Shown here piece after piece: positions 45,789 through 61,432 of a stretch of DNA of 64,000 nucleotides. Source of the DNA: Myxococcota bacterium (GTDB lineage Bacteria > Myxococcota_A > Bradymonadia > UBA7976 > UBA1532). Position numbers and translations under genes: made by a program. Within the stretch, counting starts at the first letter, position 1; each line of letters begins with the position of its first letter. The notes beneath the pieces are model-generated. The model saw only the letters and a program-made list of their open reading frames with translations. It searched no databases and was not told the origin of the DNA. The stretch spans positions 62,001 through 126,000 of the forward strand of contig CAUJDF010000057.1 in the NCBI GenBank assembly GCA_963169045.1. Direction: 5' to 3'.

Positions 45789-47902
45789 GCGTCACACCTC
45801 CCCTTCTCGGCGTGGGCGGCCACGGCCTGCGGCCAGTGGCGGATCACGGAAACGACGCGGCCGGGGGCGGCGATCCCCAGGCCGCAGGTCGAAGCGCGGG
45901 CGAGCACCGCCGACAGGGTGGCGATGCGCGCGCGTCCGACGTCGTCGAGCGCGCCGTCGGCGAGGGCGCCCCACAGGCGCGCGAGGTCGCCGGTGCCCAC
46001 GCGGCACGGCGTGCAGCGGCCGCAGGACTCGTCCCGGAAGAAGCGGGCCGCGGTGAGCGCCTCGCGGACGACGCACTCGCCGGCGTCGAGCACGCGCACG
46101 GCGCCCGTGCCGATCGACGCGCCGGCCTCGGCGAGCGCGCGGGCCTCGAACGGTGTGTCGATGGCGTCGGGCGGCAACAGACCGCCGGACCAACCGCCGA
46201 CCGCGAAGCCACCGAGGCGCGCGTCGTCGCACAAGCCCCCGCCGCGGCTCAGGATGTCGCGCAGCGGCGTCCCCGGCTCGACCTCGTACACGCCCGGGTG
46301 CCGCACGGCGCCCGAGAGCGAGACGAGGCGCGGGGGCGCGCGATCCGAGCCGAGCACCGCGGGCAGCCAGGCGAGCGTCTCCACGTTCTGGACGACGGTG
46401 GGGCGGCCGTCGAGGCCCCGCTCGGACGGATACGGCGGCCGCGGGTGCGCCTCGACGCGGCCGCCGGCCAGGAAGTCGAGCAGCGCGGTCTCCTCGCCGG
46501 CCACGTAGCGGCCGGGGCCGCGCCGGATCTCGCACGCGGGGAGCGGGCCGGCCTCGTGCCGCAGGTCGACGAGCGCGTGCTCGAGGGCGCGCGCGCCGGC
46601 GTGGAAGGCCGGATCGAGGACGAAGACCACGCGGTCCGCGCCGAGCACCGTGGCGGCGATCATCGCGCCCTCGGCGACCGAGGCGGCGTGGTGTTGCAGC
46701 AGGTAGCGGTCCTTGAAGGTCTCCGGCTCGCCCTCCTGGCCGTTGACGACGAGGACGCGCGGCCCCGGATGGCGCAGGGCGGCGGCCCACTTGTCGGCAA
46801 CGGGGAAGCCGGCGCCGCCGCAGCCGCGCAGGCCGGAGGCGCGCACCTTCGCGAGGGCCGCGGCGGGATCGAGGCGGACCCCGTCGAGGACGCGCGGCGC
46901 CGGCAGCACGGTCAGGCCCGGGCCGGCGGGCAGCGACTCGGTCCGACCGTGCTCGTCGGGGAGCGAGGCGGCGAGGGGCGTCATCGTGACGGGGCGGGCG
47001 CGGCGCGGCCGGGCGAAACGGTCGAGCGCGGGCGTGGCGGCGTTCATGATCAGGACGCCCCACATCTCCGCGCCGGGGATCGACGTGTAGAGGCGGCCGA
47101 AGACGCCGATCGCGGCGGCGCCGAAGCCGAACGCGAGGCCGCCGATGCGGGTCTGGGGCGCGGTCACCGGGTCGGTGGCGAAGAACGCGGCGTTCAGGAG
47201 GGTGGCACTGCCAAGCAGGTAGATGGCGGGGTCGAGCAGCCAGGGCGCGTGCCCCGCGACCTGCGTCGTCGCCGGCAGGAACGCGACGAGCACCGGCGCG
47301 GTGACGAGCAGGGCCAGCGGCGCCTCGCGCTTGAGCGCCACCACGCCGATCATCAGCGCCGCGACGAGGCCGAGCAGCAGCGCGCTCGTCTCGCCGATGG
47401 CGCCGCCGCGCGCGCCGGCGAGCAGGTCCCAGACGGCGGGGCTGACGAAGCCGCCGGCCTCCTTGGCGAGCGGGCTCGCGGCGCTGACCGCGTCGGGCGC
47501 CGCCTTCACCACCGGCTCGAAGACCTCGAGGACCGCGACGGCCGCGCGCCCGAAGGCCGCGGGGTTGAAGAGGTTGCGGCCGAGGCGCGGCAGGCGCCAC
47601 TTGCCGGGCAGCTCGGCGACGAGGGCGCCGACGACGATGAAGGGCAGCGGTGTGTCGGCCTTGAGCGTGAGGCCGAGCAGCAGGCCGGTGATGACGCTCC
47701 CCGGGTTGAACCAGCGGAAGGGCGCGCCGGCCAGCGCGCGCGGGACGATGCCCGCCGCCATCGTGAGCGCGATGGAGAACGCGAGCACGAGGGCGGCGCG
47801 CGGTCCGCCGCCGAGGACGCCGAGCAGCGCCACCGGCGCGAGCAGGGCGATCGCCGCGCCCCGTGCGCCGAGGCGGGCGCGCCACTTCGCCCCCGGGATC
47901 AT
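45770..47902 (-). CDS. RnfD/NqrB-NuoF fusion protein
   Basis: A 710-residue protein. Residues about 1-300 are an RnfD/NqrB-type membrane part with FNPAAFGRAAV, GSATLLNAAFFATDPVTAP and GVLIMNAATPALD. Residues about 330-700 are a NuoF-like flavin and Fe-S part: SGLRGCGGAGFPVADKW (FMN loop), VVNGQEGEPETFKDRY, a slot for NAD or another donor, and the [4Fe-4S] motif ESCGRCTPCRVG with a later Cys. It resembles RnfC plus RnfD fused in one chain, and should move electrons between a soluble donor and membrane quinone or the next protein. The ATG at 47902 overlaps the pentaheme gene stop. Confidence 0.85.
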   Translation of the reverse strand: MIPGAKWRARLGARGAAIALLAPVALLGVLGGGPRAALVLAFSIALTMAAGIVPRALAGAPFRWFNPGSVITGLLLGLTLKADTPLPFIVVGALVAELPGKWRLPRLGRNLFNPAAFGRAAVAVLEVFEPVVKAAPDAVSAASPLAKEAGGFVSPAVWDLLAGARGGAIGETSALLLGLVAALMIGVVALKREAPLALLVTAPVLVAFLPATTQVAGHAPWLLDPAIYLLGSATLLNAAFFATDPVTAPQTRIGGLAFGFGAAAIGVFGRLYTSIPGAEMWGVLIMNAATPALDRFARPRRARPVTMTPLAASLPDEHGRTESLPAGPGLTVLPAPRVLDGVRLDPAAALAKVRASGLRGCGGAGFPVADKWAAALRHPGPRVLVVNGQEGEPETFKDRYLLQHHAASVAEGAMIAATVLGADRVVFVLDPAFHAGARALEHALVDLRHEAGPLPACEIRRGPGRYVAGEETALLDFLAGGRVEAHPRPPYPSERGLDGRPTVVQNVETLAWLPAVLGSDRAPPRLVSLSGAVRHPGVYEVEPGTPLRDILSRGGGLCDDARLGGFAVGGWSGGLLPPDAIDTPFEARALAEAGASIGTGAVRVLDAGECVVREALTAARFFRDESCGRCTPCRVGTGDLARLWGALADGALDDVGRARIATLSAVLARASTCGLGIAAPGRVVSVIRHWPQAVAAHAEKGRCDACNPSS

Positions 47903-48378
47903 GGCAGCACCTCCTGCCACGGCGTGTCCTGCGTCCAGGCGGCGCTCTGGCGCGGGGCATGGCATCCGGCGCACTCGGTGACGACGTCGGTATGGCACGT
48001 GGCGCAGGCCGAAGGGCGCAGGCGGCCGAGGAGCGCGTGTCGGCGAGCGTCGTCGTCGCCGCCGATCGGGCGCCGGAAGCCTTCGGTGTGCGTGTCCGGC
48101 GGCAGCGCATGGCAGTCACGACACTCGTCGACCGTGTGGCACGACAGACAGCGCTCGGGGCGGGCCTGCGGCGCGCGCCCGTGGGTCGTCGCCCAGGCGG
48201 GATCGGCGTGGTACTGCGGATGCGCGCCGGCGATGGCGTCGTCCTGGTGGCACTGGGCGCAGTCGCCGCGGGCCCAGCGCTCGGCGGGCAGCGGCGGGTG
48301 GTCGCCGCCGGCGCGCAGGGCGCGGGCGCCCATGACGACGAGCAGCACGGCGGCGAGGATGAGCGCGAGCCCCTTCAC
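47899..48378 (-). CDS. pentaheme c-type cytochrome
   Basis: A 159-residue protein with an N-terminal hydrophobic anchor (GLALILAAVLLVVMGARAL) and five CXXCH motifs: CAQCH, CLSCH, CRDCH, CATCH, CAGCH. It starts at GTG 48378 overlapping the upstream stop (GTGA) with GGAGGG before it. Situated between the SUMF1-fold genes and the RnfD-NuoF fusion, it probably carries electrons in the periplasm between a membrane module and the larger multiheme proteins. Confidence 0.88.
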   Translation of the reverse strand: MKGLALILAAVLLVVMGARALRAGGDHPPLPAERWARGDCAQCHQDDAIAGAHPQYHADPAWATTHGRAPQARPERCLSCHTVDECRDCHALPPDTHTEGFRRPIGGDDDARRHALLGRLRPSACATCHTDVVTECAGCHAPRQSAAWTQDTPWQEVLP

Positions 48379-49997
48379 GTGCCCTCCGCGTCGGTGGCGC
48401 AACGAAAGCCGAGGTCGAAGGCGCGAAAGTCGGGCGCCCGGTACTGTCCGGCACCGCCGCGCACGCCGCTCGGCGGGCTGACGGCGCTGCCGCCGGCGAC
48501 GAAGCCCTCCTCCGTCCACTCGGCGACGTTGCCGGCGAGGTGGAGGGCGCCGGACGGCGCGGCGCCCCCGGCGAAGGAGTCGGCCGGGGCCGCGTAGGTG
48601 TATCCGTCGCGCTCGCCCCACTTCTCGCCCCCGGTGTTGGCGCGGCGCCAGTCCCAGGCGTCGCCCCAGGGCCAGCGGCGGCCATCGGCGCCCCGCGCCG
48701 CCTTCTCGTGCTCGCGGCGCGTGGGCAGGCGCTTGCCGGCCCAGCGGGCGAACGCGTAGGCGTCCCACCAGTCCACGCCGACGACCGGGTCGCCCGGGCG
48801 GCGGAAGGTGCCCGCGTCGAAGGGCGCGACGCGCGCCGCGGGCGAGTCGCGGAAGAGCGCGGCGCGGTACTCGCGCCAGTAGCGGGGCGTGTGGTCCTTG
48901 TCGGCGGGCTCGGCGGGGTGGCAGTGCGCGTGCGGGTCGTCGCGCGTGCTCTCGAGGAAGCGGCCGTAGGCGGCGTTCGTGACCTCGGTGCGGTCGATGC
49001 GGAAGGCGGCGAGCGTGTCGGCGGCGCGGTCGTCGCCCGTCCGGAACGGGCCCGCCTCGACGCGGACGAGCGCGCCGGCCTCGGGGCGCTGGGCGCCCAC
49101 GGCGGGTGTCGTCGGCGGCGTGGTGCGGTCCGGCGGCGGGGGCGCGTCGCCGGCGACGGGGACGCCGCTCGGCAGCAGGCACGGCGGCGCGCCGCAAGGG
49201 GGCGAGACGGCTGGGGTTTCCGCGACGGCCGGCGCGGCGGGACACAGTCGGCCGGGCCAGCCGGGGGTGCGGTGCTCGCCGCCGTCGCGGTCGACCACGA
49301 GCGCCTCGACGCCGGCAGGGAGCCGGGCGAGGCCGGCGCGCACCGGGCCGTCGCAGAGGTCGTGCGCGACGAGCGCGACGTCGGGCTCGGGGGCGCCGAC
49401 GACGAAGGCGCGGCGACACTCGCCGGCGCCGTCGGCCTGGGCGAGGGCGCCGTCGGTGAGCGCGCCGGCGGCGAGGGCGCGGTCGGGCCACTGCGGGTGG
49501 AAGAGCGTCACCGCCGAAGCGCCCCGGACGTACACCAGCGCCAGGACGTCCGTGCTCGTGCTCGCGCTCGTCCCGGTGACGGCGACGCGGATGTCGCCGC
49601 CGCCCTCGGCGAGGGCGTCGAACGCCGTCCGCGCGGCGCCGCCCAGCAGCCGCGCCCGGTCCGGCCCGCGGGCCGGGCTCTCGACCGCGGGGCCGCGGGC
49701 CGTCGTCGGGCGCTGCGGCGCCTCCGCGAACCCGCGCAGCCGCCGCGCCGCGACCGCCGTCGCGAGGGCCGCGCGATCCGCCTCTCCGGCGACCTCGAGC
49801 GTGAACGCCGCCCCCAGAACCACGAGCTCGCGCCGCGTCCGCTCCCCCTCGCGTCTCGCGGGCGGCAGCGCCGGCGCCGTCGCCCGGACGACCACCGCGG
49901 GCGCGGGCGCGGGCGCGGGCCGGAGCGCGTTCCACGTCAGCGCGAGGCCCACCCCGACGACGAACACCAGCAGCGCCGCGCGGCGCTGCGCGCTCAC
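48375..49997 (-). CDS. SUMF1-fold protein with N-terminal helix
   Basis: A 540-residue protein. A single N-terminal helix (RRAALLVFVVGVGLALTWNA) is followed by about 270 residues of Ala/Pro-rich sequence with a TPM-like or lectin-like segment, then a SUMF1 domain from residue 300: FRIDRTEVTNAAYGRFLE, DAYAFARWAGKRLPTRREHE, WPWGDAWDWRRAN, ALHLAGNVAEWTEEG and LGFRCATDA. No FGE catalytic Cys pair is seen at the C-terminal end. It begins at GTG 49997 overlapping the previous stop, and its stop overlaps the pentaheme gene. It may help assemble or anchor the cluster's cytochromes (inference). Confidence 0.72.
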   Translation of the reverse strand: MSAQRRAALLVFVVGVGLALTWNALRPAPAPAPAVVVRATAPALPPARREGERTRRELVVLGAAFTLEVAGEADRAALATAVAARRLRGFAEAPQRPTTARGPAVESPARGPDRARLLGGAARTAFDALAEGGGDIRVAVTGTSASTSTDVLALVYVRGASAVTLFHPQWPDRALAAGALTDGALAQADGAGECRRAFVVGAPEPDVALVAHDLCDGPVRAGLARLPAGVEALVVDRDGGEHRTPGWPGRLCPAAPAVAETPAVSPPCGAPPCLLPSGVPVAGDAPPPPDRTTPPTTPAVGAQRPEAGALVRVEAGPFRTGDDRAADTLAAFRIDRTEVTNAAYGRFLESTRDDPHAHCHPAEPADKDHTPRYWREYRAALFRDSPAARVAPFDAGTFRRPGDPVVGVDWWDAYAFARWAGKRLPTRREHEKAARGADGRRWPWGDAWDWRRANTGGEKWGERDGYTYAAPADSFAGGAAPSGALHLAGNVAEWTEEGFVAGGSAVSPPSGVRGGAGQYRAPDFRAFDLGFRCATDAEGT

Positions 49998-50797
49998 GGC
50001 GTCCCTCCCGAGAGCGACAGCGCGCAGCGGAAGCCGACGTCGTCGTAGAAGTGCCGCGGGTTCTCGGCGCCGCGCCGCGCCCGGCGCGCGTGCTCCGCGC
50101 CCGCCGACGCCCAGCCGCCGCCGCGGACCACCCGCCGCGTCGAACGCTCGTTGCCGGGCACCGCGCCCGCCGCCACGAAGCGCGCCTCGGGCGCCGCGCC
50201 GGCGTCCGGACCGCGCGGATCGGCCGCGCCGTCCAGCGTCGCGTACGCGTACCGGTCGTAGTGATCGGCCACCCATTCGCGGACGTTGCCGCCGAGGTTG
50301 AGCACGCCGAGCGCCGTGCGGTCGAAGCTCGACGAGGCCGCCGCGGGCCCCGCCGACGGGGCGCGGTCCGCGATCGCGCGGCCCGGCTCGAACACCGGGC
50401 CCCAGGGATAGCGGTGCGGCCCGGCGGCCACCTCCCACTCGGCCTCGGTCGGCAGTCGGCGGCCCGCCCAGCGCGCGTAGGCGTCGGCGTCCTCCCACGT
50501 GACGAAGCGGACGGGCAGGTCCTCGCCCCCGGGCGGGAAGCCGCGCATCCACGGCCCGCGCGGGCGGTAACCGCTGGTCCGCACGAAGGCGGCGAAGCGC
50601 GCGTTCGTCACCTCGGTGCGGTCGATCAGGAAGGCCGACAGGCGCACGCGCACGGCGGGGCGCTCGTCGTAGCGTCCCGCCGCGTCGCCGATCGTGTATT
50701 CGCCCGCGTCGATCCGCACCATCTCGGCGCCGTCGACCGGCGACACGACGCGGCCGTCCCCCGTCGGGGTCAACAGGAGCGCGACGAGCAGCCACAT
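49994..50797 (-). CDS. SUMF1-fold protein, exported
   Basis: A 267-residue protein with a short signal peptide (WLLVALLLTPTGDG) and a complete SUMF1-type fold: MVRIDAGEYTIGDAAGRYDE, IDRTEVTNARFAAFV, DAYARWAGRRLPTEAEWE, ALGVLNLGGNVREWVAD and GFRCALSLSG. The Cys residues used by true formylglycine-generating enzymes are missing, as in NirV. The ATG at 50797 overlaps the stop of the upstream beta-propeller cytochrome, so it follows that protein in the same operon. Confidence 0.8.
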   Translation of the reverse strand: MWLLVALLLTPTGDGRVVSPVDGAEMVRIDAGEYTIGDAAGRYDERPAVRVRLSAFLIDRTEVTNARFAAFVRTSGYRPRGPWMRGFPPGGEDLPVRFVTWEDADAYARWAGRRLPTEAEWEVAAGPHRYPWGPVFEPGRAIADRAPSAGPAAASSSFDRTALGVLNLGGNVREWVADHYDRYAYATLDGAADPRGPDAGAAPEARFVAAGAVPGNERSTRRVVRGGGWASAGAEHARRARRGAENPRHFYDDVGFRCALSLSGGTP

Positions 50798-53700
50798 CAC
50801 TCGATGCTCAACAGGAACGACGACAGATCCTCGATCTGTCGCGGGGTGAGATGGGAGGTGCCGCCGTGGCTGTCGACGACCTGGTCCTCGAGGTCGAGCG
50901 GCCCGTCGGGCGTGCGCGTCGTCAGCTCGTTGAAGCCGCTCTCGCGGCCGCCGGGGCGCGCGTCCTCGGGGCCGAGGCGCACCGGCAGGCGGAAGCGCCG
51001 CAGCGAGGGGTGGCCCGGCGTCGCCAGCACCTCGCGGATCGACCGCGCCCGCCCGTGGTGCAGGAAGACCGGCGGCCGATCCCACAGCCCGCGCAGCTGC
51101 ATCGTCGTGAAGGAGCCCTCGCGGTCCTCGACGCGCCCGCCATCGGTGGGATCCAGATCGAGGTCGTCACGCTCGTTGGCGCGCTCCACGGCGCGCACGC
51201 CGGCGAGCGTGTAGGACGCGTCGCGTCGCGTGATGGTGGTCAGCGGCGGCAGCGCGCGGCGGTCGTTCGGCGCCAGCAGCTCGGATTTGTTCGTGAATTC
51301 GGGCGCGGTGTGGCAGACGCCGCACGCGACGCGCGCGTCGTCGAACAGATGGCGCCCGCGGACGACGGCCGGGTGCTCCTGGTCGTACGGGTTGGGCGGC
51401 AGGCGCGTCGAGTTGCCCATGAAAGCGCCGACGAAGCGGTACAGGTCGGTCAGGTCGTGGGCGGCGCCGAACCAGCGCAGCGACTGCTGCCGGATGAACG
51501 CGTCGCGGCGCGCGTCGAGGTCGTGGCCGACGGCGCCGAGCTTCGTCACGAGCACGCGCTCTTTGAGCTCCTCGTGCTGCGGCGGGCGGACCTCGGTGGC
51601 CTTCCAGTCGGTGAAGTCGCCGGCCCACACCGGGCGGTCGAAGTCGACGGAGCTCGCCGGCTCGTTGATGTCGGCCCCCTGCCCCTCCGACAGGCGGTGC
51701 GTGCCTTCGAAGTAGAACGGCTGGATGGCGAACAGATTGCGGACCGAAGGGATGCCGAGCGTGCCGCCGGGGGTCTGATGGCCGTCGCGGTCCTGCCCGA
51801 TCGACTCGCCGGCGCCCCAGCCGCGGCCGTCGCCGGTGTCGCGCACGTGGCAATGACTGCACGAGGTGTCGCCGTCGGAGCTGAACACCGCCGTCCGCAC
51901 CACGAAGGCGCCCTTCTCCGCGTCGGTGTCGAGCGCCGGACGCGCGAGATCGCCGACGACGACGTCGCGGCGCGCGCCGCTCGCCGCGTCGATGAGGCTC
52001 ACCGTCTCCGCCATCTGGTTGGCGACGAAGAGCATGCCTTCCGACGGCGTGCCGGGCGTCCCCGCGACCACGCCGACCGGCCGCAGGCCCGTGTCGATCG
52101 CGCGGACCGGCTCCATGCGGTCGGCCGGATCCCGCGCGTCGGGCCGCAGGACCCACTCGACGACCTCGAACGTGCCGGCCATGGTCACGAACAGACGGTC
52201 GCCGACGACCGCCGCCCACTCGGGGAAGGCACCGTGGACGCGCTGCAGCTCCGGCGGCAGGTCGCCCTTCACGTCGCCCGTCGTCGCCTCGGCCGTGTCC
52301 GACGTGTAGCGCACCCACTCCGGGTGGGATTCGTAGCGGCTGGCGTCGAGCAGGTACGCGGGCTCGCGGCCGGGCGTCGCCGCCGGGATGCGCAGCCGCC
52401 GCAGGTCGATCGCCACGACGTCGTTCTGGATGTCGCGCATCTTGAAGTTCCAGGTGCCGTCGACGGCGTCGAAGGGTCCCATCGTCGCCTGCTCGTCCCA
52501 GGGGAACGGGTCGGTCGTGACGGGGTCGCGCAGCACCGTGCGCTGCGCCGCGGGATGGCTCGGATCCCACGTCTCCGCACCGAAGGGATCGCGCGCCTTC
52601 GTGGCGCCGAAGCCGGCGCCGAGCGTGAGCACGACGAGGTGGTCGCCGACGACGGCGAGGTGGTTGGCGAGGCTCTGCAGGTAGAGCGCGCCCACCTCGC
52701 GGTTGGCTTCGGTGTCGACGATCGACACGTCCATCGTGCCGGTGTTGCCGACGAACAAATGACGGCCGTCGGGCGACAGGGCCAGGTCCTTGGGATGGCT
52801 GCCGGCGTTGCCGACGGGGATGCCGGGCCCGCCCTCGCCGGCGCGGACCCACTCGACGATGCGCGCGAGGTCCGGGTCGTCGGGCGCGAACAGGGCGCCG
52901 CCGGGGTGGAACTCGGTGGTGGTGCGCTCGTCGCCGAAGCCGCCGAGGCTCTTCGGCACGACGGCGCGCACGAGCGGGCTCTCGAACGGGCGCCCGCCCA
53001 CGGCGTTCTCCACCGCCGACAGGAAGTTCTCGACCGGGTCGGGCCCGGCGACGAAGCCGCCCGCCGACTCGGCGTGGCAGCGGCCGCAGCGGGCGCGCAG
53101 CAGACCGTCGATGCCGCCGCTGCCGGCGGCCGCCTTCGCGATCTCCGCCGCCGAGTAGCCGCGCGCAGCGAGGTCCGCGGCGAGCTGCGGCGAGGGCGCG
53201 TCGTCGCCGTAGAACGCCGCGTCGTCGAAGCCGCCCACCTCGCGCACGCGGGCCGAGAAGTGCGACGTGCCGGCGTGCACGTCGAGCACGAGCACCTGGT
53301 CGAGGTAGCGGTTGGCGACCCAGGCGCGGCGGCCGTCCGCGGAGAAGACGAGGCCCTGGCAGTAGAAGTCGAGCGGGATCTCGCCGGCGACGGTGTCGGT
53401 GTAGGTGTCGACAACGGTGGCGTAGTTGGCCAGCTCGTTGGTGACGACGAGGTAGCGGCCGCCGGGGTGCGGGACGAGCGCGTACGGCTTCGGACCGACG
53501 GGGATGCGGCCGCGCACGGCGCCGGTGACGACGTCGACGACGGCCAGCGCGCGTCCGGGGCGCTCGTGGTCGCCGGGCAGCGTGACGTAGAGCTTCCGGC
53601 CCGTGGCGTCGAGAGCGACGCGCTCCGGCAGCTCGCGGCGCGGCTGCGGCTCGGGCAGCGGGTTGTTGTTGGGGACGGGCGAGAGCTCGCGGCGCACGAA

Positions 53701-53844
53701 GGGCTGCCGGTAGCGCCACACGTCGCTCGTGAGCTGCGAGAAGCGCGTGCGCGTGTGGACGGGCGCTCGATCGCCGGACACGAGCGAGGAGCGTGGCGCG
53801 GACGCGGCGCCGACGACGAGGGCGACGACCAGCAGCCGCTTCAT
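50797..53844 (-). CDS. beta-propeller and diheme peroxidase-like cytochrome (hydrazine synthase beta-gamma-like)
   Basis: A 1015-residue exported protein. Residues about 60-600 hold YVTN-type propeller repeats (RKLYVTLPGD, RRAWVANRYLDQVLVLDV, RHLFVGNTGTMDVSIVDT) with one inserted heme motif CGRCH (H257). Residues about 640-1015 resemble the diheme MauG/cytochrome c peroxidase family with CSHCH (H666) and CGVCH (H845) 179 residues apart, plus PEFTNKSEL and GLWDRPPVFLHHGRA. Hydrazine synthase has this layout as a propeller beta subunit and a MauG-like gamma subunit. The adjacent upstream gene resembles the alpha subunit. Function as HZS is inferred, not shown. Confidence 0.8.
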   Translation of the reverse strand: MKRLLVVALVVGAASAPRSSLVSGDRAPVHTRTRFSQLTSDVWRYRQPFVRRELSPVPNNNPLPEPQPRRELPERVALDATGRKLYVTLPGDHERPGRALAVVDVVTGAVRGRIPVGPKPYALVPHPGGRYLVVTNELANYATVVDTYTDTVAGEIPLDFYCQGLVFSADGRRAWVANRYLDQVLVLDVHAGTSHFSARVREVGGFDDAAFYGDDAPSPQLAADLAARGYSAAEIAKAAAGSGGIDGLLRARCGRCHAESAGGFVAGPDPVENFLSAVENAVGGRPFESPLVRAVVPKSLGGFGDERTTTEFHPGGALFAPDDPDLARIVEWVRAGEGGPGIPVGNAGSHPKDLALSPDGRHLFVGNTGTMDVSIVDTEANREVGALYLQSLANHLAVVGDHLVVLTLGAGFGATKARDPFGAETWDPSHPAAQRTVLRDPVTTDPFPWDEQATMGPFDAVDGTWNFKMRDIQNDVVAIDLRRLRIPAATPGREPAYLLDASRYESHPEWVRYTSDTAEATTGDVKGDLPPELQRVHGAFPEWAAVVGDRLFVTMAGTFEVVEWVLRPDARDPADRMEPVRAIDTGLRPVGVVAGTPGTPSEGMLFVANQMAETVSLIDAASGARRDVVVGDLARPALDTDAEKGAFVVRTAVFSSDGDTSCSHCHVRDTGDGRGWGAGESIGQDRDGHQTPGGTLGIPSVRNLFAIQPFYFEGTHRLSEGQGADINEPASSVDFDRPVWAGDFTDWKATEVRPPQHEELKERVLVTKLGAVGHDLDARRDAFIRQQSLRWFGAAHDLTDLYRFVGAFMGNSTRLPPNPYDQEHPAVVRGRHLFDDARVACGVCHTAPEFTNKSELLAPNDRRALPPLTTITRRDASYTLAGVRAVERANERDDLDLDPTDGGRVEDREGSFTTMQLRGLWDRPPVFLHHGRARSIREVLATPGHPSLRRFRLPVRLGPEDARPGGRESGFNELTTRTPDGPLDLEDQVVDSHGGTSHLTPRQIEDLSSFLLSIE

Positions 53845-56800
53845 GGCGACACCGGGGGGCGCGCTCCGTGGAACGGCGCGCCGAGGTCGATCCAGCGCGC
53901 GAGCGTGCGCAGGTCCTCGGCGGCGGGCGCGGCGTGGCCGCGCAGCTTCTCGAAGAGGGCGCTCTCGCTCGACAGCGCCTCGCGCTCGTTCACGAGCGGC
54001 AGCAGGCGCTCGTACGGGGCCGAGAAGCGCGCGCCCGGCGCGTCGCGCAGGTCCTCGTGGCAGGCCACGCAGGCGCGATCGAGCACGGGCTGCACGTCGC
54101 GCCGGAAGTCGACCGCCACCGGCGCCTGCCGTGCGGGCGGCAGACGGCGCGCCGCGGTCGCGTCCCAGTTCGCCATCACCTGCGAGGCCGAGGTCACGAC
54201 GTCAGGCGGCCCGATGGCCTGCGTCCGCTCGCCGGTGAGGGCGCCATGGCAGCCGCCGCACCGCAGCGGGAAGACGGACCGCGGGATGGAGAACGTCAGT
54301 TTTTCGCCGGGTTGCACGTAGAACCAGCGGTTGGTGCGGTGCAGCGCGCGGCCGTCCGCGTCGAGCGCCTGCAGGTCGAGCGGCGTCTCGGGCGGGACCT
54401 GCACCTGGAACGACCCGTCCGGCTCGAGCGGCACCTCGGCGACGATCCACTCGCGGCCGTGCAGCCCGGCGCCGGCGGCGTCGTCGGGGCCGCGCGGCGG
54501 GTCGTGGGCGATGACGCGCACCGCGTGCAGCCGCGACTCGGCGAAGTCCCGGGGTCCCACCGGCGCGAAGTGCGTCAGGAACGATTGCAGCAGCGGGTAG
54601 TCGTAACACTCGACCACCGCCGGCGCGTCCGGCGCCGCCCGCAGCACGCCGTCCTCGCGGCGCGTCTTCGTCCCGGCGACGAACTTCTGCTCGGTGTGCG
54701 CCCGCTCCTTGAGCCGCACCACGATGGGGCGCGGCGTGTGCTCGGCGAAGGCCGCCGAGCCGGCGAGGCGCTCCCGCGTGAATGGGCCGGTGCGGCGCCC
54801 CGCCTCGACGGCGCCCTCGAACCGCAGGCGGTACACGTCCCAGTCGGGATCGGCGTCCGGGTCGAGGTGGTCGATCGGGCCGGCGGCGTGGGCGGCGAGG
54901 ACCGTCCCGTCGGGCAGCGGGTACGGATCGCGCCACGCGCCGCCGGGCGAGCGGCCCGTCACCGTGACGGCGTCCGGGCCCGTCTCGGCGAAGAACGTGA
55001 ACTGCGCCGGCAGGAAGCGCGGCGACGACGAGGCCGGCTTGTCGTCGGGCCCGAGCGGCAGGTCGTCCACCGGGTTGTCGGGCTCGACGTCCGGGCCGAA
55101 GCCGTGGTCGGCGAGCAGCAGCAGGCCGCCGCCCCACAGGTTGCGCGGGTCGAGCGCCATCCGCACCTCGAGCCCCTGGGGCGTCTCGCGCGAGTCGGCG
55201 ACCACCGGGTAGCGCGAGCGGTTGTTGCCGTGGATGTGGTAGTCGAAGCCGCCCGACATGACGCGGTAGATGGCGCCGGCGAACACCGGGCGGTCGGCCT
55301 GGTCGCCGCTGTCGCGGACGCTCGTGAACATCACCTCGCCGCTGGTGCGCATCGTCGGGCGGCGGTCCTGCGCGCTGCCGAAGGTCATGCGGCGGGCGGG
55401 GCGGCCGGGCACGAGGCGCCACACGTCGTAGGCCGGGGCGAGGCGGTTCGAGGCGTCCTCGACGACGTAGACCGTCCGGCGGTCGGGGGCATCCGGGAGC
55501 GGCGCGTCGAGCTCGAGGCGGGCGCCGACGACGCTGTCCGGGTCGGCGAGGTGGGCCACGATCGTGCGCTCCTCGCCGGCGAACGGCCCGGCGACGATCG
55601 CGAGGCGGCGGCCGGCGAGCGTGCCCGGCGCCTCGGTGCGCTGCGCGTCGACGATCGTGCGGGCCGTGCCGCCGTCGGCCTCGCCGATCAGCGCCCGCGC
55701 CGCGGTGGAGGCCCAGACGCCGGCCGCGTTCGAGGCGTACACGATCGCGACGTCGTCGAGGGCGGACTCGGCGCCCGGTCCCGGCGCGTAGAGCGGGTCG
55801 ACGTGGTGGATCAGCGTGCCGTCGGCGAGGCGTTCGGGGCCGTCGCTGACCTGGCGCGGCGGTCCGGGGACGAGGTCGTCGTCGAGCGCCACCTCGTACA
55901 GACGGAAGGGCGCGTCGGCGCTTGAGCGCGCCGCGAAGACGAGGGCGCGCGCGTCGTAGCGCACGTCGAGGCCGAGCACCTCCACCGGACCGAGCGCTGC
56001 GGTCACGCTGACCGGATTGCCATCGAGCGGCTGCACGACGACCTCGCCGCCGCCGTGGAACGGCTCGACGTCGAAGAAGCGGCGCGGCGCGTGGCGCGGA
56101 CCACGGACGTACGCGATCCCCCGCAAGCGGCCGAGGGCGTCGGCGGCGATGGACCCGCCGCCGCTCGTGAGGCGCAGCGCCGCCCGCTCGGCCCCGAGCC
56201 AGCGCACGAGCCGCCGGGCGTCCGGGTCGTCGAGCGACTCGAGGAACTGCCCGTTGCCGCCGCGGTGCAGGACGCCGCCCTCCGAAATCGGGAGCGTTTT
56301 CGCGACGATGCGGCTCAGCCCGAGGTCGCCGCCCAGGTTCGCGAAGCGGGTCACGGCGCCGAGCGCCTGCGCCCGGTCGTGGGCGAGCAGGCGCGGCGAG
56401 AAGCCGGCGCCGGGCCGCATCGGGGCGTCGGCGCGCGGCAGCGGCGGCGTCAGCTTCAGGTCGTTGAACGCGTCCGGGCCGTGGCACGCCTGCATGAAGC
56501 AGCCGTTGCGCACGAGCACGCCGAGCGCCTCCTCCCGGAACGCGGCGACGTCGCCGGCCTCGGGCGCGGCCCCCTGCGTCTCGAGCGCCACCCAGGCGGT
56601 CAGCGTGCGCAGGTCCCGGTCGTCGGGCGTCGCGAAGACGTCGATGCCGCGGTGCGGCAGGCCGCCGAGCGACTCGGAGAGCGGCTTGCGGACGATCGGG
56701 CTGAACGCGGGGTCGGCGCCGGGCTCGAGGCGGTGGTGCGGATCGCGGGCCGAGTCGAACGCCGCGCGCAGGCCGTCCGGCGGGATGCGGCCCGTGCGCG

Positions 56801-57008
56801 GGTCGATCGGGAAGAGGAAGGCGCCCTCGGGCTCGGTGGCGCGGCGCGCGTCGAGGTCGGGCGTGCCGTGGCAGCCGGCGCCGCAGCGCTGCTCGAGCAC
56901 CGGCGCGACGCGCGTGCGGAACATCGCGAACGACGGGTCCTCGGCGTCGCGCTCGGCGCATCCGAGCAACACCGCGACGCACAGCAGCGCCCTCTCCCGC
57001 ACCACCAC
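53841..57008 (-). CDS. multiheme lipoprotein resembling hydrazine synthase alpha subunit
   Basis: A 1055-residue lipoprotein (ALLCVAVLLGC). The N-terminal region carries two atypical heme-like motifs, CX3CH (C42-H47) and CX4CH (C170-H176). A TolB-like propeller spans about 280-640 (GLDVRYDARALVFAAR, VAIVYASNAAG, RMTFGSAQDRRPTMRTSGEV). A middle region includes WFYVQPGEKLTFSIP, and two CXXCH motifs lie at 917-921 and 980-984. Hydrazine synthase alpha has propeller, then a domain with a five-coordinate heme, then a bis-His heme. Similar proteins occur outside anammox bacteria with unknown function. The start is GTG 57008. Confidence 0.75.
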   Translation of the reverse strand: MVVRERALLCVAVLLGCAERDAEDPSFAMFRTRVAPVLEQRCGAGCHGTPDLDARRATEPEGAFLFPIDPRTGRIPPDGLRAAFDSARDPHHRLEPGADPAFSPIVRKPLSESLGGLPHRGIDVFATPDDRDLRTLTAWVALETQGAAPEAGDVAAFREEALGVLVRNGCFMQACHGPDAFNDLKLTPPLPRADAPMRPGAGFSPRLLAHDRAQALGAVTRFANLGGDLGLSRIVAKTLPISEGGVLHRGGNGQFLESLDDPDARRLVRWLGAERAALRLTSGGGSIAADALGRLRGIAYVRGPRHAPRRFFDVEPFHGGGEVVVQPLDGNPVSVTAALGPVEVLGLDVRYDARALVFAARSSADAPFRLYEVALDDDLVPGPPRQVSDGPERLADGTLIHHVDPLYAPGPGAESALDDVAIVYASNAAGVWASTAARALIGEADGGTARTIVDAQRTEAPGTLAGRRLAIVAGPFAGEERTIVAHLADPDSVVGARLELDAPLPDAPDRRTVYVVEDASNRLAPAYDVWRLVPGRPARRMTFGSAQDRRPTMRTSGEVMFTSVRDSGDQADRPVFAGAIYRVMSGGFDYHIHGNNRSRYPVVADSRETPQGLEVRMALDPRNLWGGGLLLLADHGFGPDVEPDNPVDDLPLGPDDKPASSSPRFLPAQFTFFAETGPDAVTVTGRSPGGAWRDPYPLPDGTVLAAHAAGPIDHLDPDADPDWDVYRLRFEGAVEAGRRTGPFTRERLAGSAAFAEHTPRPIVVRLKERAHTEQKFVAGTKTRREDGVLRAAPDAPAVVECYDYPLLQSFLTHFAPVGPRDFAESRLHAVRVIAHDPPRGPDDAAGAGLHGREWIVAEVPLEPDGSFQVQVPPETPLDLQALDADGRALHRTNRWFYVQPGEKLTFSIPRSVFPLRCGGCHGALTGERTQAIGPPDVVTSASQVMANWDATAARRLPPARQAPVAVDFRRDVQPVLDRACVACHEDLRDAPGARFSAPYERLLPLVNEREALSSESALFEKLRGHAAPAAEDLRTLARWIDLGAPFHGARPPVSP

Positions 57009-57064
57009 CCCTGCTCTTCCGGAGGTTCTCGAGCGACGCTAACGGCGCGTGCGGGGAGGCCGAA

Positions 57065-57080
57065 TCGGCCGGACGGCCGA
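57065..57080 (-). promoter_or_regulatory. inverted repeat upstream of the HZS-alpha-like gene
   Basis: TCGGCC-GGAC-GGCCGA (6+6, 4-base spacer) lies 57-72 bases upstream of the GTG at 57008; another CCGAACGGCCGA is at 57091-57102. It shares a GGCCGTCCGGCCG-like core with sites ahead of the LuxR and DUF3303 genes. High GC makes chance matches plausible. Confidence 0.35.
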
Positions 57081-57216
57081 CGGAATGCCGCCGAACGGCC
57101 GATGCGCGGTCGGTCGGGCGGCGGACGCCGGCGGCGAGGAGCGCGCGACCCTCCGAGGGGGCGGCAAGGCTCGTGGTGCAACCGCCGAACACGACCCTCG
57201 GCGCTCACGGCACGCC

Positions 57217-57530
57217 GCGACCAAATCCCTGGCCGCCGCGGCGACCCGCGCGCGCGCAGCGACCGGATCGCGGCCCGCAGCGACCAGATCGCGGCCCGCA
57301 GCGACCAGATGCTCGGGCATCTCCCCAGCAGCCCTGTGCCGGTGCGGCCAAATCCCTGGAGTGCGTGGGCATATCGCGACGCGCTTTCGACCGAATGCGA
57401 TCGAGCGTGCGACCAAATCGAAGCGCGCCCGCGACCAAATCGCCGTCGCAGCCGAGCATCTCCCGGCGCGCTCCCGACCCTCGAGACGCCCGCGCGACCA
57501 AATCCGAGACGCGTCGCGACCCCAGATTCG
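57217..57530. repeat. degenerate direct repeats of GCGACCAAATC
   Basis: GCGACCAAATC is exact at 57217, 57409, 57431 and 57494. Variants GCGACCGGATC (57259), GCGACCAGATC (57280), GCGACCAGATG (57301) and GCGGCCAAATC (57344) lie between, and GCGACCCCAGATTC at 57516. Spacing is irregular apart from a 21-base tandem part at 57259-57311. The A-rich core stands out in the GC-rich background. Role unknown. Confidence 0.7.
57259..57311 (+). repeat. 21-base tandem repeat, two and a half copies
   Basis: Units at 57259-57279 and 57280-57300 differ by one base, and a partial third copy runs to 57311. Each begins with the GCGACCAGATC-type element of the larger array. Confidence 0.85.
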
Positions 57531-57748
57531 CGCGCGCAGGCAAATTGGCGCGCTCCCACCGTCCGAGAAACGAGCGCGCGCACGAATCCGCCGCGCTCGT
57601 GGCGGGTGACGGCCCTGCCGCGTCGGCAGCAGAAACACGGTTGAGGCAAGAGAGGCGGGAGAAAGCCGGACGACGACGGCGGCCCGGCCAGGGAAGGGGG
57701 GGAACCGCTGGCCTCTCCGGGCGCGTGGGCGGCGGTGGGTGGGCCCTC

Positions 57749-58207
57749 TCAGGGCCCGGTGCCGCCCGGCGCGGGGGGATCATCCCGGAGTGGCGCTGGG
57801 TGCCGAGCGCCGTCGTCGTCTGCTTCCACCTGTATCGCGGCACGCGTGCCGCGCACATCGGCCGGACGGCGGAGCCGGCGCGCGATCGCGAGCAGCGCAT
57901 GCGCGCCGAGCGCGGGCAGCAGCACGTCGGTGAGCGCGCGGTGCGCGAGGCGGGCGCCGCCGCGGTGCTCCGAGGGCAGCAGCGCCAGCGCGACGCCGGT
58001 GAGCGACAGCAGCGCGAGCGTGACGATCGCGACGCGCGCGAACGCGCCGGCGAGGCGCACGTCGCGCCAGCGCGCGCCCGCGGCCATGGCGACGACGAGC
58101 GGGACGAGCGGCGTCGCCAGCCAGGCGTGCTCCGGGCGGCGCCCCGGGCCGGTCGCGAGCGCGACGAGGGCGAGCGCGGCCACGGTGCCGTGCAGCAGGC
58201 GCCACAT
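57749..58207 (-). CDS. small multi-helix membrane protein
   Basis: A 152-residue protein with four hydrophobic helices (LLHGTVAALALVALAT, LATPLVPLVVAMAAG, VAIVTLALLSLTGVALALLP, LPALGAHALLAIARRL) and histidines H8 near the first helix and HRGG..AHRA on the third loop, a pattern that could bind heme b as in cytochrome b561-type or DUF4405-type proteins (inference). Its start region lies in a recent 68-base tandem duplication. It follows the octaheme repeat protein on the same strand. Confidence 0.65.
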   Translation of the reverse strand: MWRLLHGTVAALALVALATGPGRRPEHAWLATPLVPLVVAMAAGARWRDVRLAGAFARVAIVTLALLSLTGVALALLPSEHRGGARLAHRALTDVLLPALGAHALLAIARRLRRPADVRGTRAAIQVEADDDGARHPAPLRDDPPAPGGTGP

Positions 58208-58306
58208 CACGGCCCCCCGAGCATACGGCGGGACTGCGCGAGCGCGGCCACGGTGCCGTGCAGCAGGCGCCACATCACGGCCCCCCGAGCATGCGGCGGA
58301 ACTGCT
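58171..58306. repeat. 68-base tandem duplication of a gene junction
   Basis: 58171-58238 and 58239-58306 are nearly identical (only about three differing bases near their ends). Each copy spans the end of the octaheme gene and the beginning of the membrane-protein gene. The second copy keeps the stop-start overlap and creates a 22-codon frame (58207-58275, minus strand) that ends at the start codon of the membrane-protein gene. Confidence 0.9.
58207..58275 (-). CDS. 22-residue junction peptide created by tandem duplication
   Basis: This frame starts at an ATG overlapping the octaheme gene stop and reads MWRLLHGTVAALAQSRRMLGGP (given here as first part MWRLLHGTVAALA and last part QSRRMLGGP), joining the first residues of the membrane protein to the last residues of the octaheme protein. 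Its stop overlaps the real start of the membrane-protein gene, so ribosomes could pass from gene to gene through it. It is likely a by-product rather than a functional peptide. Confidence 0.4.
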   Translation of the reverse strand: MWRLLHGTVAALAQSRRMLGGP

Positions 58307-60290
58307 CGACCGCCGGACCGCCGCGGCCCTCGGCGGCGAGCGCGTCGAGCATCGCGCGGGCCTCGACGGGGCGACCGCGCGCGAGCAACAGCAGCGCGCG
58401 CGACAGCCGCGCCCCGTCGCCCGCGGGATCGAGCTGCGCCACCTCGCGCTCCGCTTCGTCCGGGCGGTTCTGCCCGATGAGGAACTGCACGAGCTCGACG
58501 CGCGGCGCCTCCACCGGACCGCCGATGGCGGCGCCGCGCCGCAGCAGCCGCTCCGCCGCGGCGGGCTCGTCGCGCAAGAAGAGCGCCGCCGCCTCCTGCG
58601 CCAGCGCCCGCGGGTCGTCGGCGCGCACCACGTCCATGCGATGCGCCACCTCGGCGCGGACCTTCGCCAGCGCCGGATCGCGGCTCACCTCGGGCCGCCG
58701 CAGGACGAGCGTCTCGTAGGCCCGGACGCGGACGACGCGCGCCGGGTCCGCCGTGGCCTCCCGCAGCGCCTCCACCGCCGCGGGCGCGTCGAACGATCCC
58801 AGGCCGCCGACGACGTAGTAGCGCACGAGCGGGTGCGGGTCGTGGCGGTGTTTCAACAGCGCGGCCATGGCATCCGGACCGTTCTCGGCGTCGCCGAGGA
58901 AGAACGCCGCGCTCGCTCGCTGCACGACCGAGCCGGCGCCGTCGTCGAGCCATCGCGCCAGCGTCGCGGTCGGTGCGGGCTCCCCGGCGAAGATCGCCGC
59001 CAGGGCCGAGGCGCGCTCCACCATGCGCGCGCGGTACGCCTCGAAGTGGGGGCGACCGCCGAACCAGCGCTGCACCGCCTCCTCGGCCCACTCGACGGGC
59101 TGGTCCGCGTGGCAGTTGCCGCAGGCGTTGGGCGCGCCGAAGCGTCGCGTCAGCTCCGGCAGCGGGCTGCCGATGGCATGGTCGCGGGCAGTCATGCGCA
59201 GGTTCAGGTCCTGCTTCGGCATGTGGCACTCGATGCAGCGGCTACCATCGGACTCGGCGCCGTGGCGGGTGTGCTCCGTCAGCTGGGTCTTGTGGCCGAG
59301 ATGGCAGGTCGTACAGAGCGCGTTGGCTTCCGTGACGGTGCGCCCGGCGGTGCTCTCGAGGCCGTGCGGCGGATGGCAGAAGCCGCAGTCCATCTGTCGC
59401 GTGGCCCGGCGGAAGCAGCCGTTCTGCATGTAATCGACGTAGCGATAGTTGAGGTTCGACGAGCGCCCGTCGGCGTGGAACGCCCCGACCTCCCACACAT
59501 CGGGCGCGAAGTGGTCGTAGAAATCGGTGCGCCCGGAGACGTAGCCCTCGGCGTAGACGCGCTTGCGCGCGTGGCACGTGGCGCAGGCCTCGATGGCGGC
59601 GTCGAGCCCGTAGCGGTCCACGGGCGCCAGCGTGCCTTCGGCCGCGGCGCGGTCCGGGCGCTCCCAGGCGCGCACGTGGGCGGCGCCGGGGCCGTGGCAT
59701 GCCTCGCAGTCGATCGTGTTCTCGAACGTGCTGGCATAGGTGTTCGTCGCCGCGTCGTAGCGCTTCTCGCCGCGACTCGAGTGACACTCGAGGCACTGCC
59801 GGTTGAAGGTGCGGCCGAAGTTGCGCCAGTGCTCCGGGTGGTTGCGCGCGAGCGGCCCCTCCCCGCTCACCGGCCCCTCGGTGGCGTCGCGCCAGGACTG
59901 CTCCTCGACGTTCCAGTAGGTGGGCAGCACCTGCAGGCGCCCGTCGGGCTCGCGGTGCAGGTAGGCCTGATGGCGGATGGCGCCGAGCACGAGGTCGATC
60001 GACCACGTCTCCTCGCGGCCGTCGGCGTCGCGGTAGGTCATGAAGTAGCGCCCGTCGCGCAGGAAGACGCGCGTGCGCGTGCCGCCGAAGGTGTAGTCGA
60101 CGTCGAGCTTGCCGAGGACGGACTCGGGCGTGGGCTCGGCGAGGTTGCGGAAGTGGGCGGAGCGGCGCCACGACGCGTAGGCCTCGGGGTGGCACGAGGC
60201 GCAGCGCTCGGCGCCGACGACGCCGCCCGGCGGCTCCGGCGGTGGCGCGCTGGAGCAGCCGAGCGCGAGGAGGAAGAGCAGGCGCCTCAT
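58275..60290 (-). CDS. octaheme c-type cytochrome lipoprotein with C-terminal HEAT/TPR repeats
   Basis: A 671-residue lipoprotein (RRLLFLLALGCSS). Eight CXXCH motifs lie in the first 400 residues: CASCH, CLECH, CEACH, CATCH, CGFCH, CTTCH, CIECH, CGNCH. The C-terminal 250 residues are HEAT-like and TPR-like helices (LVRYYVVGGLGSFDAPAAV, AAALFLRDEPAAAERLL, LLARGRPVEARAMLDAL). It resembles multiheme proteins with a tetratricopeptide tail seen in Myxococcota and Planctomycetes, where heme order follows the NrfA/HAO plan. It is coupled to the HAO-like gene by ATGA. The redox substrate is unknown. Confidence 0.85.
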   Translation of the reverse strand: MRRLLFLLALGCSSAPPPEPPGGVVGAERCASCHPEAYASWRRSAHFRNLAEPTPESVLGKLDVDYTFGGTRTRVFLRDGRYFMTYRDADGREETWSIDLVLGAIRHQAYLHREPDGRLQVLPTYWNVEEQSWRDATEGPVSGEGPLARNHPEHWRNFGRTFNRQCLECHSSRGEKRYDAATNTYASTFENTIDCEACHGPGAAHVRAWERPDRAAAEGTLAPVDRYGLDAAIEACATCHARKRVYAEGYVSGRTDFYDHFAPDVWEVGAFHADGRSSNLNYRYVDYMQNGCFRRATRQMDCGFCHPPHGLESTAGRTVTEANALCTTCHLGHKTQLTEHTRHGAESDGSRCIECHMPKQDLNLRMTARDHAIGSPLPELTRRFGAPNACGNCHADQPVEWAEEAVQRWFGGRPHFEAYRARMVERASALAAIFAGEPAPTATLARWLDDGAGSVVQRASAAFFLGDAENGPDAMAALLKHRHDPHPLVRYYVVGGLGSFDAPAAVEALREATADPARVVRVRAYETLVLRRPEVSRDPALAKVRAEVAHRMDVVRADDPRALAQEAAALFLRDEPAAAERLLRRGAAIGGPVEAPRVELVQFLIGQNRPDEAEREVAQLDPAGDGARLSRALLLLARGRPVEARAMLDALAAEGRGGPAVEQFRRMLGGP

Positions 60291-61432
60291 CGCGCCGCCC
60301 GCAGGCGACGGGCCTCGTCGCGGATGAAGGTCAGATCGGCCTGCAGCGCCGCGTAGCCGAGCCAGTGCGCGTGGTCCGGCGAGAAGTGGTAGGCCCCCTT
60401 GAACGCGATGGCGTGGCGGAAGTGCGACATCTCGAAGAAGCGCTGCTCGATGGCGGAGGTGTCCGAGTAGAGCTGGTGGCCGCCGAGCACGAGCGCGTGC
60501 CCCGCCGCCGGGTTCGGCGGGCGGTCGGCGGGCATCGGCGCCAGGAGGCCCTCGGCGTGCAGCTCGCGCAGGATCTGCGCCGCCTCGGCGACGAGGCCGT
60601 CGGCGATGCGTTTCACCTCGTCGGCATCGGCGAGCTGGCGGCGGGCGAAGCCGGCGGAGTGGCACTCGCCGCAGACGGCGAGCATGCGCGCGCGGCCGGC
60701 GTCGAGCGTGTCGCGGTCCGCCGCCTCCATCGGGATGCCCGCGGGCGTGCCGGCGAGGACGCGGCCGTTGCCGGTGGTGCCGAGCGTGAGGCCGCCGCTG
60801 GTGTCGTGGTCGCCGGCGAGGTGGCAGGTGACGCAGGTGGGCGCGACGCCGGGGTCCTGCGCCTGCGCGAAGACGACGCCGTGCTTGGACGCGCGCCAGG
60901 CCTCGGCCTGCGGGTGGTCGGGGCCCATGTGGCAGCCCTCGCAGGCCTCGGGGCGGCGGGCCTCCTCGACCGAGAAGCGGTGGGCGGAGTGGCAGTCGGC
61001 GCAGCGGCCGCGCCCGCCGTCGGGATCGAGACGGCCGATGGCGTGGCACGAGAGGCAGCCGACGCGCTGGATCGCCGCGGGGGCCGCCTGGAAGCGGCCG
61101 TTCTGCCGGGCGGCCTCCTCGGCGCGCGCGTGGCCGCTGCGGGCGAAGCTCTCGGTCGCCGCCGCGTGGCAGTCGCCGCAGACCTTCGCCGACACCCTGC
61201 CGCCGCGGGCGAAGATGGCCTCGTGGTCGTCGCCGTGGCAGTCGGCGCAGCCTACGCCGGCGGGCATGTGCGGGCTCTGCAGCCACTGGTCGACGAGCCG
61301 CGCGTCGCGCTGCCGGTGACAGCCGACGCACTGGTCCTCGTCGACCCAGTCGCGCGCGAGCGGGGCCCAGCGCCACGCGGCCGCGGCGGTCGAGACGACG
61401 ACCGCGGCCAGCAGCGGCAGGAGTCTACGCAC
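60287..61432 (-). CDS. octaheme cytochrome of the hydroxylamine oxidoreductase type
   Basis: A 381-residue exported protein with eight CXXCH motifs at C35, C62, C85, C126, C144, C164, C200 and C254. After the hemes come helices with IEQRFFEMSHFRHAIAFKG and AYHFSPDHAHWLGYAAL, matching the C-terminal pattern of hydroxylamine oxidoreductases, where xxYxKGxxHxSPD surrounds the catalytic heme. The crosslinking Tyr of oxidative HAO appears replaced (IAF before KG), as in reductive HAO relatives. Oxidation of hydroxylamine or reduction of nitrite are the candidate reactions. It overlaps the DUF3303-like gene by 8 bases. Confidence 0.75.
   Translation of the reverse strand: MRRLLPLLAAVVVSTAAAAWRWAPLARDWVDEDQCVGCHRQRDARLVDQWLQSPHMPAGVGCADCHGDDHEAIFARGGRVSAKVCGDCHAAATESFARSGHARAEEAARQNGRFQAAPAAIQRVGCLSCHAIGRLDPDGGRGRCADCHSAHRFSVEEARRPEACEGCHMGPDHPQAEAWRASKHGVVFAQAQDPGVAPTCVTCHLAGDHDTSGGLTLGTTGNGRVLAGTPAGIPMEAADRDTLDAGRARMLAVCGECHSAGFARRQLADADEVKRIADGLVAEAAQILRELHAEGLLAPMPADRPPNPAAGHALVLGGHQLYSDTSAIEQRFFEMSHFRHAIAFKGAYHFSPDHAHWLGYAALQADLTFIRDEARRLRAAR

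Follow-up and report, generated by a model that had tools for sequence, protein, structure and literature searches.

For a long time hydrazine synthase (HZS) was regarded as exclusive to anammox bacteria, and where it came from is still unsettled. In the anammox enzyme (HzsABC; PDB 5C2V/5C2W; HzsBC fused in Scalindua) an alpha subunit made up of a propeller, a middle domain and a C-terminal part with two haem c sites is encoded together with a beta propeller and a diheme gamma subunit. The existence of hzs-like genes outside anammox bacteria has since been reported (Dalcin Martins et al. 2023, PMC10732223), and HZS homologues have been divided into clades I–IV, with the conclusion that conservation does not extend to key residues (Hagglund et al. 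2025, PMC12758564). The published non-anammox homologues come from Planctomycetota, KSB1 and Desulfobacterota, and their function is still open (PMC10732223, PMC12758564); Myxococcota has 0 occurrences in PMC12758564. Here we analyse a 64,000-nucleotide stretch of the genome of a denitrifying Myxococcota-like bacterium (the window; positions 62001–126000 of contig C57 of genome G000, which comprises 9.0 Mb in 109 contigs with a GC content of 73.7%). On its minus strand the window encodes an HZS-alpha-like tetrahaem protein of 1055 aa (P0002; 53841–57008) and an HZS-beta-gamma-like fusion of 1015 aa (50797–53844). The initial annotation took the function of such relatives outside anammox to be unknown, which still holds, although it passed over the fact that homologues had already been published.

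Two whole-length relatives of HZS

Both reading frames lie where they were first annotated, on the same strand, and have a strong coding bias (GC content at third codon positions 0.96–0.97); the two genes share 4 bases (53841–53844). P0002 matches the Pfam HZS_alpha model with 44.1 bits (cut-off 26.6), a model that matches nothing in the 14 control genomes (0/14). Against the NCBIfam equivalog models the pair scores 28.8 bits for hydrazine_alpha (cut-off 800), 44.6 bits for beta (560) and 15.3 bits for gamma (625), all far below threshold, as compared with approximately 1350–1640 bits for genuine HZS alpha; over the HZS models as a whole the pair stays at 15–45 bits, where the cut-offs are 560–1250. 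The NCBI HZS alpha cut-off is passed by 27 of 392 sampled Planctomycetota genomes, and in that sample nothing besides HZS fragments exceeds 90 bits with this model.

A profile built from 21 alpha-like relatives and compared with PDB sequences has 5c2v_A as its top match (E = 1.2e-47), in three collinear blocks that span the propeller, middle and C-terminal domains. The corresponding beta-gamma profile matches 5c2v_B (E = 2.7e-27) and 5c2v_C, the HZS gamma chain (E = 4e-14), with no peroxidase or MauG chain among the PDB sequences at 1e-3. The best propeller match of this profile is the surface-layer protein 1l0q (E = 1.8e-51), so that the beta identity is not exclusive from sequence alone; a fold search of the beta-gamma-like protein ranks 5c2v_B first. 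Profile–profile comparison (hhalign) with real anammox sequences from four loci (L121, L167, L168 and L169) gives E values of 3.2e-41 for alpha, 8.6e-16 for beta and 1.8e-14 for gamma. The AlphaFold model of P0002 is of high quality (predicted local distance difference test (pLDDT) 89.2, predicted template modelling score (pTM) 0.90), and in a Foldseek search with this model two HZS alpha chains lead (5.6e-26 for 5c2v_A and 8.1e-25), followed by an unrelated chain at 1.5e-5.

Because the PDB profile, profile–profile, and model and Foldseek results agree, we regard it as secure that the two proteins are true, very distant, whole-length relatives of HZS. The matches extend over whole subunits, which bears out the HZS-like domain plan that was first proposed for the pair. 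A match confined to generic propeller or peroxidase regions is ruled out, since both the PDB profile search and Foldseek point specifically to HZS alpha, and the sole diheme protein matched is HZS gamma.

Haem motifs and active-site residues

The alpha-like protein comprises an N-terminal two-haem domain, the propeller, the HZS_alpha middle domain and C-terminal haem sites, and probably has a lipoprotein signal (LLGC). The propeller and the two C-terminal c haems of the initial annotation are borne out, the latter by an alphaI-type motif (C917GGCH921) and an alphaII-type motif (C980VACH984). Two extra N-terminal motifs of unusual spacing (CX3CH at 42–47 and CX4CH at 170–176) had been missed, as had a haem domain inserted in the beta propeller; the Cys and His of both N-terminal motifs are invariant across the 32-sequence alignment. 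The beta-gamma-like protein has a Sec signal, the propeller with its inserted cytochrome c domain (C253GRCH257; Pfam Cytochrom_C at 251–334) and a diheme gamma-like part (C662SHCH666 and C841GVCH845). The propeller and the two gamma haem motifs are thus as annotated. The pair carries 7 haem motifs, compared with 4 haems in HZS.

Tyr591, in the anammox alphaI motif CxGCHxGSY, is the iron ligand of haem alphaI (PMC12607021, PMC12758564). The window motif reads CGGCHGALTG, in which this tyrosine is missing, and no aligned relative of the window's group (group I) or of its sister group (group II) has an equivalent. For alpha His772, the distal ligand of haem alphaII, a nearby His (PHP) occurs in most group I rows, and H1025 is the candidate in the window. 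HZS gamma contains the sequence FRHEG...DRVCG, which includes His144 and Cys165, the latter providing the third thioether bond to haem gammaI. The window has FYFEG, with Phe712 in the place of His144, and the other group I relatives have V, I or L there. No Cys is found at the Cys165 place in group I, the window included; most group II rows keep a Cys (FCC) near it. The expectation that the alphaI and gammaI haem-ligand positions would be conserved therefore fails at all three residues. On the tests applied here, we reject a bona fide HZS from these residues together with the scores.

Distribution and co-evolution

In searches of genome contigs P0002 alone gave no match and an alignment query recovered relatives. 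Homologues turned up in 66 of the 379 genomes that were sampled within the window's phylum and in 20 of the 392 Planctomycetota genomes, 5 of these being close. Trees of both proteins (a quick method, with support from the Shimodaira–Hasegawa-like approximate likelihood ratio test (SH-aLRT)) separate anammox HZS, a type represented by L163 and L164, and a large clade made up of group I, which contains the window, and group II. L163 and L164 (alpha only) serve as stand-ins for clade I and clade II/III of PMC12758564, matched by their described features: L163 has Trp at the His144 place and keeps Cys165, as described for clade I. The window genome has a second alpha/beta-gamma pair, which belongs to group II (L060; G000:C91:46908–54317). 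Group II loci commonly include a DUF3570 gene and some include an AhpC/thioredoxin-like gene.

Judged by the alpha-like gene, the Myxococcales bin L074 is the closest named relative of the window organism. Inside group I, the bins that cluster with the window are one of Myxococcales, two of Planctomycetota and two of Gammaproteobacteria. This mixture of phyla suggests horizontal transfer, with the caution that applies to metagenome bins. Distances of the alpha-like and beta-gamma-like proteins are strongly correlated (mirror-tree r 0.953 across 24 loci, a value reached by none of 5000 permutations; r 0.951 for group I alone), a signal that partly reflects shared host-lineage ancestry.

A conserved operon with an electron-supply module

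The alpha-like gene heads a minus-strand chain that runs from 57008 to 43228 in the order alpha-like, beta-gamma-like, two formylglycine-generating enzyme (FGE) genes, five-haem cytochrome, RnfD-NuoF, NuoG-like and HTTM. Successive genes overlap by a few bases, so that the chain looks like a single transcription unit. The first FGE/SUMF1-like protein (49994–50794; PF03781, 164 bits) has the formylglycine-generating-enzyme fold, and its counterparts recur in several related loci. The second (48375–49997) has, on comparison with its L076 orthologue, a degenerate N-terminal ApbE-type region, in which no Pfam ApbE match is found. It is followed by a small c-type cytochrome with five CXXCH motifs and a signal anchor (47899–48378), which can be aligned with relatives from L075 and L079–L082. 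Next come an RnfD/NqrB-like membrane flavoprotein with a fused NuoF-like NADH/FMN/4Fe-4S domain (45770–47902), a NuoG-like 2Fe-2S/4Fe-4S protein whose C-terminal stretch resembles the vitamin-K gamma-carboxylase lumenal domain (44628–45788), and an HTTM-domain membrane protein with C-terminal TPR repeats (43228–44631). These last two genes amount to a split gamma-carboxylase-like pair inside an electron-transfer operon.

All operon proteins were compared with the group I loci by tblastn. The simple gene caller used put some GC-rich genes on the wrong strand (for example in L085 and L175), and these were rechecked by tblastn or family search. Among the group I loci with sufficient flanking sequence, almost all show the alpha/beta-gamma pairing. 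Type Ia operons (the window and L075–L078) contain alpha, beta-gamma, FGE and ApbE genes and the small cytochrome, followed by RnfD, NuoF and NuoG-like genes where the contig reaches that far. Type Ic operons (L055, L056, L079–L083, L087 and L088) contain beta-gamma, ApbE in most, alpha, the small cytochrome in nearly all, and then RnfC and RnfG (FMN_bind), with RnfD present too where the contig extends far enough. The small multihaem cytochrome is found in nearly all Ia and Ic operons with enough flank, and three Planctomycetota loci fetched later as a check (L191–L193) all have ApbE, the small cytochrome and RnfC (3/3). The combination of the pair, the small multihaem cytochrome, an RnfD/NuoF/NuoG or RnfC/RnfG/RnfD set and in most cases ApbE is found in bins of at least five phyla (Myxococcota, Planctomycetota, Gammaproteobacteria, Acidobacteriota and Bacteroidota).

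The flavinylation place of RnfD reads SAAS in the window and SGAT or TGAS in relatives. L076 has an intact ApbE–FGE fusion and L077 an ApbE. The ingredients of ApbE-flavinylated Rnf-type transfer (the RnfD fold, a flavinylation-type motif and an operon ApbE) are thus present in the family; the window's own ApbE domain is degenerate, and two intact ApbE genes lie elsewhere in its genome. A role in modifying or binding the complex is conceivable for the FGE-type proteins.

Loci of a third type (L084–L086 and L089), which form a subclade, have FGE genes, with ResB and CcsA in 3 of 4. In the lake Myxococcales-type loci L084, L086 and L089 the alphaI haem motif reads CGACM, with Met for His; it is these operons that carry the ResB and CcsA cytochrome c maturation genes, and that of L086 also has genes for DAHP synthase and a RidA/chorismatase-like protein. 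These features may hint at specialized maturation or at a biosynthetic cluster.

Nitrogen-oxide and octahaem neighbours

The neighbouring genes named in the initial annotation (octahaem, nitric oxide (NO) reductase and RnfD/NuoF/NuoG-like genes) are all present as claimed. The quinol-dependent NO reductase (qNOR; 40261–42573, minus strand; PF22085, 245 bits) is on the same strand as the chain, 0.65 kb downstream of its last overlapping gene, HTTM, and 8 kb from the alpha/beta-gamma pair. The window genome, G381 and G786, which belong to three phyla, each have a qNOR no farther than approximately 10 kb from the cluster (3 of 7 qNOR-bearing group genomes). The chance that one random gene is that close is approximately 0.5% in each of these 4–9-Mb genomes, so that 3 of 7 would arise by chance with a probability of approximately 4e-6, or 2 of 6 without the window with approximately 4e-4, the window having been chosen partly for its NO reductase. 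Because qNOR is close by in three phyla, NO is a candidate substrate. A clade III lactonase-type NosZ was also considered, and its 14 bits are at chance level.

Upstream of the alpha gene is a non-coding leader of approximately 0.7 kb (57009–57748, minus strand) with repeated GCGACCAAATC (GATTTGGTCGC) elements. These repeats have variable spacing, lie between two haem-protein units and are possible regulator sites. The start of the small membrane gene at 57749–58273 has a tandem duplication of approximately 60 bases (58220–58290). Beyond the non-coding stretch, a separate unit on the same strand encodes an octahaem cytochrome of the hydroxylamine oxidoreductase (HAO) family (60287–61432) and, overlapping it, a multihaem cytochrome with HEAT and TPR repeats (58275–60290). 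The octahaem protein, which has an orthologue in the nearest relative (G379), matches the NCBIfam hydrazine_HDH model with 101.7 bits (97 bits in the genome-wide scan; cut-off 900). It is the only match in the genome, so that no hydrazine dehydrogenase (HDH) was found genome-wide to accompany the pair. Its length falls short of that of HDH, and Trp aligns where oxidative forms have their cross-linking Tyr (the C-terminal alignment is uncertain), from which we tentatively suggest that it is reductive. An octahaem HAO gene likewise adjoins the HZS genes in the anammox loci L167, L168 and L121.

Farther away, a copper nitrite reductase fused to a cytochrome c domain (NirK-cytochrome c; 13963–15699) adjoins a third SUMF1/FGE-like protein (15710–16477) and an SCO-like protein.

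Proposed function and alternatives

Our preferred reading, to which we give roughly even credence, is that the pair forms a periplasmic multihaem reductase that is sister to HZS, is fed from NADH or ferredoxin and lacks the hydrazine-forming site. The alpha and fused beta-gamma proteins would assemble into a periplasmic, probably lipid-anchored, seven-haem complex that shares the ancestry and architecture of HZS and represents a separate lineage without that site. Electrons would start from NADH through the NuoF/NuoG-like proteins in the window, or from an Rnf complex in related operons, and be carried across the membrane by the RnfD-type flavoprotein, putatively flavinylated by ApbE. The small five-haem cytochrome may then relay them to the gamma-like diheme part and the alpha haems, and a small substrate, possibly NO, hydroxylamine or a peroxide, would be reduced at the complex, acting as a terminal reductase. 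The 4-base overlap, the recurrent pairing and the mirror-tree correlation speak for a two-subunit complex. The data show the homology of all three HZS modules, the loss of key residues, the co-evolution of the two proteins and the conservation of the operon; assembly into one complex, the direction of electron flow, flavinylation, the substrate and the role of the alpha haem are inferred from these. A more far-reaching version, which we consider distinctly unlikely, is that the family is an undescribed respiratory or detoxifying enzyme class of at least five phyla, in which electrons from NADH or Rnf would serve for periplasmic reduction of NO or joining of nitrogen species; if true, it would be a second, non-anammox branch of HZS-type nitrogen chemistry.

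Several observations weigh against the reductase reading or its NO variant. The structural model of the beta-gamma-like protein is poor in the gamma-like part (pLDDT <50 over most of 653–770 and 835–1015), so that the homology of this part rests on sequence, and the host-lineage component of the mirror-tree correlation weakens the case for co-evolution. The pair is present in the third-type loci (L084–L086 and L089), in which tblastn finds no Rnf gene. Rnf is able to run either way. Among 18 related genomes, only 6 have a qNOR and 1 has NirK, so that NO is not a universal partner; as the substrate it is an unproven candidate, and NirK is ruled out as a general functional partner.

The full-length homology of all subunits and the proximity of NirK, qNOR and an octahaem protein whose best NCBIfam match is HDH would fit a functional non-anammox HZS, in which the gamma-like site would turn NO into hydroxylamine, the alphaI-like haem would condense this with ammonia and the octahaem protein would oxidize the product. 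We consider this highly improbable given the loss of alpha Tyr591, gamma His144 and gamma Cys165, scores more than 10-fold under the equivalog cut-offs and far from those of real HZS alpha, the genome's want of an HDH, the short octahaem protein with Trp aligned to the HDH Tyr, and the failure to find NirK in 17 of the 18 relatives. Hydrazine chemistry is unsupported, because the catalytic-ligand residues are missing and the genome has no HDH; the HZS-like fold and complex of the first annotation stand. Membership of the gamma part in the diheme peroxidase/MauG superfamily (a weak match to Pfam PF03150) raises the alternative of a MauG/MbnH-like or cytochrome c peroxidase (CcP)-like enzyme that uses peroxide or oxidatively modifies a protein, with the propellers as scaffolds. 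This is unlikely: the CcP/MauG Trp (position per PMC12758564) is Phe in the window and V, I or L in other group I members, the nearest solved diheme protein is HZS gamma and not CcP or MauG, and no conserved substrate-protein partner was seen.

Electron flow could also be reversed, a reduced periplasmic substrate being oxidized and the Rnf/Nuo module passing the electrons to NAD+ or ferredoxin. Rnf commonly couples ferredoxin and NAD+ inside cells, and the NuoF-like domain is a possible NAD+-binding site. However, c-haems of ordinary potential are unable to reduce NAD+ without ion-motive input, the nearest enzyme, HZS, acts as a reductase at gammaI, and the qNOR neighbours suggest acceptor metabolism, which makes the oxidative direction improbable. 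We are equally doubtful of a non-catalytic haem conduit or extracellular electron-transfer complex serving metals, minerals or a partner cytochrome: seven haem motifs, a probable lipid anchor, a small multihaem partner and Rnf input speak for it, but conservation extends to the HZS-like two-site architecture and to the haem domains of gamma, and no porin-cytochrome partner was noticed in the operons. The periplasmic reductase thus remains our working proposal. As a widespread sister complex with a dedicated electron supply, it offers a system for asking what the HZS scaffold did before hydrazine, and the family as a whole makes HZS_alpha or hzs-like matches alone an unsafe basis for calling anammox potential.

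Comparison with known systems

With anammox HZS the window pair shares the alpha architecture (propeller, middle domain and a C-terminal pair of haem c sites), the beta propeller and diheme gamma part, and the joint encoding of the subunits. It differs in gene order (alpha, then beta-gamma), in its extra haem motifs (two in alpha and one in beta), in the loss of Tyr591, His144, Cys165 and HDH, and in an operon with Rnf/NuoF/ApbE-type genes and a small multihaem cytochrome. As in the published non-anammox homologues, alpha is upstream of a fused beta-gamma and Tyr591 is not conserved. Unlike those of clades I–III, however, the window lineage forms a clade separate from the L163/L164 stand-ins (clade IV was not compared); the published pairs have an FG-GAP/CRTAC1 gene beside them, and no FG-GAP match was found among the window-lineage neighbour proteins scanned. 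The window lineage also has neither the N-terminal c554 haems on beta-gamma nor the Trp at the His144 place. The gamma part has the two-domain diheme fold of cytochrome c peroxidase and MauG, but has Phe for the catalytic Trp and is closer to HZS gamma.

With Rnf/Nqr systems that use ApbE flavinylation (PMC8238504) the family shares the RnfD/NqrB fold with its [ST][GA]A[ST] motif, RnfC, RnfG (FMN_bind), ApbE and a NuoF-like NADH subunit. It differs in that the window has no complete Rnf set and a small multihaem cytochrome links the module specifically to an HZS-like complex; a word search of that flavinylation survey found neither hydrazine nor multiheme. The window therefore represents a lineage outside HZS and outside both published-type relatives compared (L163 and L164), with an architecture and operon of its own, and the main new point is that an HZS-type complex is apparently supplied by its own dedicated path from NADH or ferredoxin.

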